DNA of 64,000 bases. Origin: Sediminitomix flava (lineage in GTDB: Bacteria; Bacteroidota; Bacteroidia; Cytophagales; Flammeovirgaceae). The notes under the pieces are model-generated. The model worked only from the letters and a program-made list of their open reading frames with translations. It did no database searches and was not told the origin of the DNA. The position numbers and the translations under genes were made by a program. The stretch is taken from assembly GCF_003149185.1 (NCBI RefSeq), contig NZ_QGDO01000001.1:1-64000 (forward strand), given 5' to 3'. Shown piece after piece: positions 1 through 676 of this stretch (the first letter of the stretch is position 1; the number at the start of each line of letters is the position of its first letter).

Positions 1-75
<75 letters not shown>

Positions 76-198: not shown

Positions 199-213
199 TC
201 TTTCAAAGAACTT
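199..213 (-). promoter_or_regulatory. boxA-like antitermination site in rRNA leader
   Basis: The minus strand reads AGTTCTTTGAAAGAA about 125 nt before 16S rRNA. The GTTCTTTGA core resembles boxA (TGCTCTTTAACA in E. coli), which recruits NusB/NusE for rRNA antitermination. The placement in the leader fits. The match is partial, and the sequence is also self-complementary (TTCTTTcAAAGAA), so this is tentative. Confidence 0.4.
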
Positions 214-330
214 TTGAGACTTTCTATCAGAATTTTAAAGCATTTAAAACTCTCAATCTCAATGTAAAAACTGACTTCTTCAGCCTCTATTTATTTCGTT
301 TTCTGAGTCGTTTTCCTCAGAAGACGGATG

Positions 331-363
331 CAAAGGTAAGAACTTTTTCTTTTCAACTCCAAA
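331..363 (-). promoter_or_regulatory. rRNA promoter P1 (proximal)
   Basis: On the minus strand: TTTG (360-363), 21 nt, TACCTTTG (331-338), a full match to the Bacteroidota sigma-A consensus. The transcribed side then shows GCATCCGTCTT and a hairpin (301-322) with a 7-bp stem TTCTGAG/CTCAGAA around the loop GAAAACGA. Confidence 0.85.
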
Positions 364-473
364 ACTTTTTTCAAGTTTTTTTTTTGGAGTGTTTTGAGAA
401 GCATTTCTTCAAAACCTTTACGCATGACATTGTTTTACGTCTTTTCTGTGATCGTTTTCACCAAAGACGGCTG

Positions 474-506
474 CAAAGATAAGAGATTTAATTCGATCTT
501 TCCAAA
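474..506 (-). promoter_or_regulatory. rRNA promoter P2
   Basis: On the minus strand: TTTG (503-506), 21 nt, TATCTTTG (474-481). It is followed, as in P1, by GCAnCCGTCTT and a hairpin (439-468) with stems GTCTTT/AAAGAC and GTGA/TCAC around a loop containing AAAACGA. Confidence 0.85.
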
Positions 507-644
507 TCTAATTTTGTTAAGCGATTTAAATAAAATGAACTGACTTCATTTTCAGCATTAAAAAACTTAAGCTCTTTCTTATTTCTTTAGCAAACTGGTG
601 CTTGAATCTCGTTTTTCAAGCGTGCTTCTCGTTTGAAGCGGGTG

Positions 645-676
645 CAAAAGTGAGGGTTTTATTTGGACTGTGCAAA
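645..676 (-). promoter_or_regulatory. rRNA promoter P3 (distal)
   Basis: On the minus strand: TTTG (673-676), 20 nt, CACTTTTG (645-652), one base off the TAnnTTTG consensus. Immediately downstream lie GCACCCG and two hairpins: GCTTC/GAAGC (624-639, loop AAACGA) and GCTTGAA/TTCAAGC (600-621, loop AAAACGAGA). Confidence 0.7.

Follow-up and report, generated by a model that had tools for sequence, protein, structure and literature searches.

We identified a start module at each rRNA promoter in a stretch of the Sediminitomix flava genome and at most of the rRNA promoters that we sampled across Bacteroidota, composed of the -7 box, the motif CANYC(C/G)C and a short hairpin. These hairpins, whose stems co-vary, tend to lie at the presumed transcription start. 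We tentatively interpret it as a 5'-terminal hairpin on stable-RNA transcripts, the most likely role of which would be to shield the 5' end from 5'-sensing decay. The window, i.e. the whole stretch of 64,000 nucleotides that was analysed, covers positions 1-64,000 of the forward strand of contig NZ_QGDO01000001.1 (assembly GCF_003149185.1; contig C1 of genome G000 in our labels).

An earlier note on this DNA had proposed three tandem rRNA promoters on the minus strand (P1, P2 and P3) that repeat one module with spacings of 20-21 nt. The sequence agreed with this layout, and the 5' end of a 16S rRNA gene at window positions 75-1 confirmed P1-P3 as rRNA promoters (Table 1). The primary-sigma promoter consensus of Bacteroidota is TTTG / TAnnTTTG, as given in excerpts of PMC6847099, and all three promoters fit it: the -7 boxes of P1 and P2 agreed with TAnnTTTG, that of P3 deviated at its first base (CA for TA), and the -33 TTTG was found within about 19-21 nt upstream in each case. 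GCAnCCG directly followed the -7 box at all three promoters. For F. johnsoniae, the same excerpts place the G of TTTG at -5 and transcription starts at 4-5 nt past the -7 box; the +1 positions predicted here for S. flava were transferred from those starts. In the Rfam 15 search of the window, the 16S alone reached the gathering score, and seven other matches at E values up to 10 in positions 1-1000 were all far below the cut-offs; a known structured-RNA family was therefore rejected for the hairpins, which had no covariance-model match at cut-off. We also rejected an intrinsic terminator suggested by a simple scan at 598-623, since it lies on the plus strand, opposite to transcription.

Table 1. 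Features of the rRNA leader in the window, with predicted +1 positions.
Feature	Position	Strand	Basis
16S rRNA gene 5' end (contig ends inside the gene)	1..75	minus	Rfam RF00177, 56.3 bits, E 2.5e-13
boxA-like GTTCTTTGA	203..211	minus	sequence
Promoter P1: -33 TTTG 363-360, 21 nt, -7 TACCTTTG 338-331, then CATCCG	331..363	minus	sequence, Bacteroidota consensus
P1 start-site hairpin, loop GAAAACGA 315-308, predicted +1 326 or 325	297..326	minus	fold
Promoter P2: TTTG 506-503, 21 nt, TATCTTTG 481-474, then CAGCCG	474..506	minus	sequence
P2 start-site hairpin, loop AAACGA 457-452, predicted +1 469 or 468	438..469	minus	fold
Promoter P3: TTTG 676-673, 20 nt, CACTTTTG 652-645, then CACCCG	645..676	minus	sequence; in 7/7 leader copies
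P3 first hairpin GCUUC-AAACGA-GAAGC, predicted +1 640 or 639	624..639	minus	fold
P3 second hairpin GCUUGAA-AAACGAGA-UUCAAGC	600..621	minus	fold

Folding recovered the one or two hairpins that had been noted after each promoter, as well as the AAACGA common to all four of their loops. Stems started 4 nt after the -7 box at P1 and P2 and 5 nt after it at P3, next to a +1 taken from F. johnsoniae. In short stretches, the P1 hairpin reached -13.2 kcal/mol compared with -4.8 in shuffles (z -4.2; 0/200 shuffles as stable), the P2 hairpin -10.5 kcal/mol compared with -5.5 (z -2.3; 5/200), and both P3 hairpins together (stretch 645-595) -14.5 kcal/mol compared with -5.4 (z -4.1; 0/200). When the promoter was included (106 nt fold), z was -3.7 for P1, -1.1 for P2 (24/200 shuffles as stable) and -2.1 for P3; that is, the excess stability was smaller for P2 and P3 once the promoter was in the fold.

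Seven leader matches were found in the S. flava genome: P3 was represented in all seven, P1 and P2 in five, and two held P3 alone. The P2 hairpin read CUUUGGUGA-AAACGA-UCACAGAAAAG in the window and CUUCAGUGAA-AACG-UUCACUGAAAAG in the other four copies (L016-L019), a compensated change that lengthens the stem and keeps AACG but loses AAACGA (-15.2 kcal/mol in L016 vs -10.5 in the window copy). The P1 loop was AAAGCAA in one out of five copies (L016), the loop of the second P3 hairpin was AACG in two copies, AACA in three and AATG in two, with a stem that varied too, and the first P3 hairpin was identical in 7/7 copies. The loop is not constant among the rrn leader copies of this genome. All seven leader matches sit at contig ends (C1, C4, C6, both ends of C9, C11 and C12) and a 16S search of the S. 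flava assembly gave no match, so collapsed rRNA operons are probably where the assembly breaks.

Among the relatives, the pattern TACCTTTGCANNC...AACG matched 13 out of 18 family genomes (the reversed control pattern had 2 hits in total), and the stems around the loop vary freely within the family, e.g. CCCUUU-AACG-AAAGGG, GCCUUU-AACG-AAAGGC, CCUUC-AAACG-GAAGG and CUUCAGC-AAACG-GCUGAG. The 16S searches gave a match in 5/17 family genomes and in 37/192 genomes of the order (family included), and the scan of named genomes comprised at least 119 DNA stretches. We selected modules with a TAnnTTTG within 700 nt of the 16S, a TTG at a spacing of 17-23 and a C directly after the -7 box; 252 raw modules were reduced to 234 by deduplication and to 200 below 75% identity, from 125 loci, while 18 out of 156 leaders were without a recognised promoter. 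The start motif of these 200 non-redundant rRNA modules was TAnnTTTG-CANYC(C/G)C: past the -7 box came C (required by the selection), A (87%), N, Y, C (97%), C or G (95%) and C (75%), followed by a T- or A-rich stretch. Given that F. johnsoniae transcripts start 4-5 nt past the box, the conserved C/G would be at or beside +1. The published sigma consensus, as presented in excerpts of PMC6847099 and PMC9723704, has neither the CANYC(C/G)C start nor a hairpin, and the excerpt of PMC9723704 mentions variants of the Bacteroidota promoter motif as being in a supplement. Our literature search, which covered open-access papers without their supplements, found no description of start hairpins or of the CANYC(C/G)C motif at Bacteroidota rRNA promoters. 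One locus titled Candidatus Saccharibacteria (L189) had TACCTTTG promoters and the Bacteroidota-type 16S start that was used as search pattern, and therefore its bin is probably contaminated.

We then measured the offset, defined as the number of nt from the -7 box to the start of the hairpin. With all offsets from 0 to 21 allowed, the best hairpin started 3-6 nt past the -7 box in 114 out of 200 modules, compared with 45.2 in shuffles. Mean hairpin energy peaked at offsets 4 and 5, the distance at which F. johnsoniae transcripts begin, and was low from 7 on, with little at 7-21. The best energy at offsets 3-7 averaged -5.05 kcal/mol vs -1.96 in dinucleotide shuffles, and 46% of the modules reached -5 kcal/mol there (13% in the shuffles). 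A hairpin of -4 or better was present anywhere in 142/200 modules, the best one at offset 3-6 in 86, at 0-2 in 34 and at 7 or more in 22; in shuffles, 91.4 modules had such a hairpin, 21.6 of them at 3-6. At offsets 3-7, about 35% of the modules lacked a hairpin reaching -3 kcal/mol.

The earlier note had also suggested selection on RNA structure, and three measures of stem co-variation agree with it, all with shared ancestry not fully corrected. First, when the 5' arm of one module was combined with the 3' arm of another, the mean energy was -2.91 kcal/mol, a loss of 2.14, and the same swap lost 0.49, 0.0 and 0.06 in nulls built on shuffled modules; 138 out of 200 modules beat the average stability of the swaps built from them. 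Second, the native flanks of AACG (n=87) reached -3.63, compared with -2.12 when the flanks were permuted (sd 0.18, 200 permutations, lowest -2.57). Third, we counted pairs in 29 family rows selected solely on where AACG lies (a set of 8 rows hand-picked for fit was partly circular), and the covariation score was 0.445 vs 0.191 in shuffles, with 0/500 shuffles reaching it. Sliding this register by +1 gave 0.368, which is close to the native score, as expected because loops of 4, 5 and 6 are mixed. The 4-base-loop register scored 0.334 vs 0.176, and its -1 slide, equivalent to the 5-base-loop register shifted, was slightly higher (0.377). Neither pairs changed on both sides nor further pair types exceeded the shuffles in the 29 rows.

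The rRNA start motif is shared with the tRNA promoters of the S. flava genome. TTTGC[AC] was found within 160 nt of 26 out of 29 tRNA clusters, and 23 of those 26 had CAN(1-2)CGC directly past the -7 box. Folded from the start, the 26 tRNA leaders averaged -2.82 (shuffles -1.07) and 12 of them were at -3 or better; a start hairpin was lacking in another 10 (0 to -0.9), among them five leaders of just 18-20 nt. The genome had 103 tRNA matches, many of them in equal-scoring arrays (e.g. nine at C1:945162-945951 and seven at C1:1513738-1514427). Within the family, GACAC-AAACG-GUGUC opens tRNA-Val arrays, each of seven or eight genes, that lie upstream of an IMP dehydrogenase gene; this start sequence was matched in nine family genomes, and the IMP dehydrogenase neighbour was read in three loci, with a family match for L053. 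The promoter of a tRNA-Tyr/Gly array in one genome (G010) was similar to the tRNA-Val array start. In a genome of another family (G059), the start motif was weak at tRNA promoters (30 out of 40 tRNA matches examined), and for this reason we do not claim the tRNA part for the phylum. A small SRP RNA gene (Rfam RF04183; L223:2043-2150, minus strand) lies directly behind TATCTTTG-CGCCCGGG, which is close to the stable-RNA start motif. We predicted 32 mRNA promoters in the window and a further 220 kb; not one had the start motif, and their mean was -0.54 compared with -0.91 in shuffles; only 5 of the 32 have a -33 TTG, so that some of these controls are not real promoters.

In the reading that we favour, primary rRNA transcripts, and some of the tRNA precursors of S. 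flava as well, would begin with a nearly blunt, triphosphate-ended hairpin at the predicted start sites. Enzymes that sense the 5' end, namely an RppH-type pyrophosphohydrolase and RNase E/G, would then find no single-stranded end to act on, and the untranslated nascent pre-rRNA could thereby escape attack until it is packaged and processed. Each tandem promoter would need its own hairpin because each makes its own 5' end. Across the sampled modules the stem sequence is free and the loop sequence mostly free too, and a 5' shield fits best with a hairpin that is indifferent to sequence and flush with the predicted +1. RNase E/G was above cut-off in 18/18 relatives. TIGR00649 (named MG423 in the output), which we take to be an RNase J-type family, reached its cut-off in 0/18 relatives, with weak matches in 10; RNase J was thus dropped as the threat and RNase E/G taken instead. 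Since processing normally strips the leader off the pre-rRNA, a shield would bring an indirect benefit. Excerpts of PMC3997798 report that 5' structure blocks RppH and the entry of 5'-tethered RNase E, and that B. subtilis RppH requires at least two unpaired nucleotides. The S. flava hairpins resemble the 5'-terminal stem-loops that stabilise mRNAs in their predicted place at the 5' terminus, where few bases would stay unpaired, and in a sequence-independent stem; they differ from them in being on rRNA and tRNA precursors and part of a promoter module, and here stabilisation would be the expected effect. Counting against the shield are the 56 out of 142 modules with their best hairpin elsewhere, the roughly 35% lacking one that reaches -3 kcal/mol at 3-7 and the 10/26 tRNA leaders without a start hairpin, and the enrichment of AACG described below is not needed by a pure shield. 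The GC-rich start sequence may itself serve rRNA-type initiation control.

A possible alternative, to which we give less weight, is a boxB- or put-like signal in the nascent RNA, in which the AACG loop or the hairpin would recruit a protein or touch RNA polymerase and make elongation on the untranslated rRNA and tRNA operons termination-resistant. AACG was the most enriched of the 256 tetramers at offsets 8-26 (72/200 modules vs 22.3 in shuffles), and it was found in 46 out of 713 18-nt windows just before the 16S. Hairpins of -4 or better numbered 113 at offsets 3-7; AACG was present in 44 of them and at the apex in 22 (55, 7.6 and 1.9, respectively, in shuffles). The flanks of AACG in the modules were complementary. 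Of the 113 loops, 12 were GNRA and 88 were at least 75% purine. A recruited factor accounts better for the enriched AACG loop, and we keep this alternative for that reason. Against it, 128 out of 200 modules lacked AACG in the counted stretch and half of the AACG hairpins (22/44) did not have it at the apex. The AACG loop signal is real, and it is neither universal nor fixed. A constant AAACGA loop, as first noted from the window, was consequently rejected as a general rule, since the copies within the genome differ and most modules are without AACG; the relatives supported the excess of hairpins at the start and the AACG enrichment across the phylum sample, and often lacked the loop sequence.

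The same alternative would draw on boxA. Of 156 rrn leaders, taken to a length of at most 700 nt, 124 contained a boxA-like GTTC[AT]TT (control: 1.6% of 66-nt genome windows, roughly 17% per 700 nt), and such a word stood before the 16S at 103/138 16S-proximal promoters. At E. coli rrn P2, the hairpin comes first and boxA second. The upstream copies mostly lack a boxA that belongs to them: 24 out of 113 upstream promoters had a boxA-like word before the next promoter (23 within 60 nt) and 89 had none. Hairpins were of similar strength at 16S-proximal (-5.47, n=134) and upstream promoters (-4.83, n=100). In the window, there are about 85 nt from the P1 hairpin to the boxA, and P2 and P3 are without one of their own. 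The hairpin thus goes with each promoter and not with boxA, and the 89 upstream promoters weaken the idea of a hairpin that is part of boxA/nut. Together with the start motif common to the tRNA promoters of S. flava, this linkage adds to the earlier reading of the element. Transcripts from P3 and P2 would traverse the P1 hairpin anyway; for antitermination, copies at every promoter would be redundant, and their presence points to the 5' end, or to the start as such, as what counts. At four loci (L228, L218, L217 and L209), several tandem promoter hairpins were closely followed by their own boxA-like GTTCTT, forming compact hairpin-boxA modules.

HK022 put RNA is a phage element with specific stem-loops that act on RNA polymerase, and the S. 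flava hairpins are like put in being, as predicted, nascent 5' hairpins near a promoter. For E. coli K-12, using what we take to be the rrn start sites, we found best hairpins near the start of P1 transcripts of -15.2 or -14.5 kcal/mol (rrnA, B, C and G) and of -12.1 (rrnH and E, about 3 nt in), with shuffle means of -3.9 to -5.8, and no clear start hairpin at rrnD P1 (-3.3 kcal/mol). P2, matched in four operons (rrnA, B, C and G), begins with the boxB hairpin, of -9.6 to -11.8. For whole rrnB stretches (41 and 55 nt), z was -1.0 at P2 and -2.1 at P1, and the stability at P2 is therefore unexceptional for its composition. The P1 hairpins differ in sequence among the operon groups (6/7 operons). 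The Bacteroidota module is like E. coli rrn P2 boxB in being a leader hairpin a few bases from the presumed start, which in E. coli P2 lies upstream of boxA; it is unlike it in its sigma factor and start motif, in its presence at every tandem promoter of the window, often without boxA, and in its loops, which are AACG or GAAA-like in many relatives. According to excerpts of PMC10250234, rrn boxB is puzzling, and its removal in E. coli had little effect on 30S activity, which also speaks against an antitermination role. Slightly more doubtful is a phylum-wide form of this alternative, in which a +1 hairpin, often AACG-looped, would be read by a dedicated factor or by RNA polymerase and give processive, termination-proof rRNA and tRNA transcription. 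If true, Bacteroidota would have in this nascent-RNA signal their own equivalent of the puzzling rrn boxB of E. coli.

It is unlikely that the hairpin acts on early elongation, forming while the first 20-30 nt emerge from RNA polymerase and preventing backtracking, pausing or R-loops at busy promoters. Such a role would agree with an element that is anchored at the start of what are presumably the busiest promoters, has no strict sequence requirement and was not seen at the 32 predicted mRNA promoters; hairpins further downstream would serve equally, yet offsets 7-21 show little. We consider a by-product of composition very unlikely. The conserved start is indeed pyrimidine-rich (CCGCTTT) and followed by purines, with which it could pair by chance, and swapped arms keep -2.91 kcal/mol; the arm swap disfavours this artefact, as native pairing beat swapped pairing by far more than in any of the three nulls, and so does a covariation score above all 500 shuffles. 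Least probable of all is a DNA-level operator for a dimeric regulator, for although inverted repeats do lie just downstream of the presumed start at P1-P3, their arms differ among promoters, copies and species, unlike those of a single operator, and arms that vary in length, together with G-U pairs, speak for RNA.

The 5'-terminal rRNA hairpin may reach beyond Bacteroidota, judging from the E. coli rrn P1 hairpins, and the unexplained rrn boxB would then be a possible case of a wider rule, by which rRNA transcripts begin with a hairpin. rRNA output sets how fast a cell grows, and the literature that we found says little about how Bacteroidota control it. A start-anchored, co-varying hairpin, together with a signature shared by the tRNA promoters of S. 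flava, offers an element that can be mutated for studying how stable RNA is made, protected and controlled in Bacteroidota, where a hairpin at the very first bases may protect or control the most abundant RNA of the cell.
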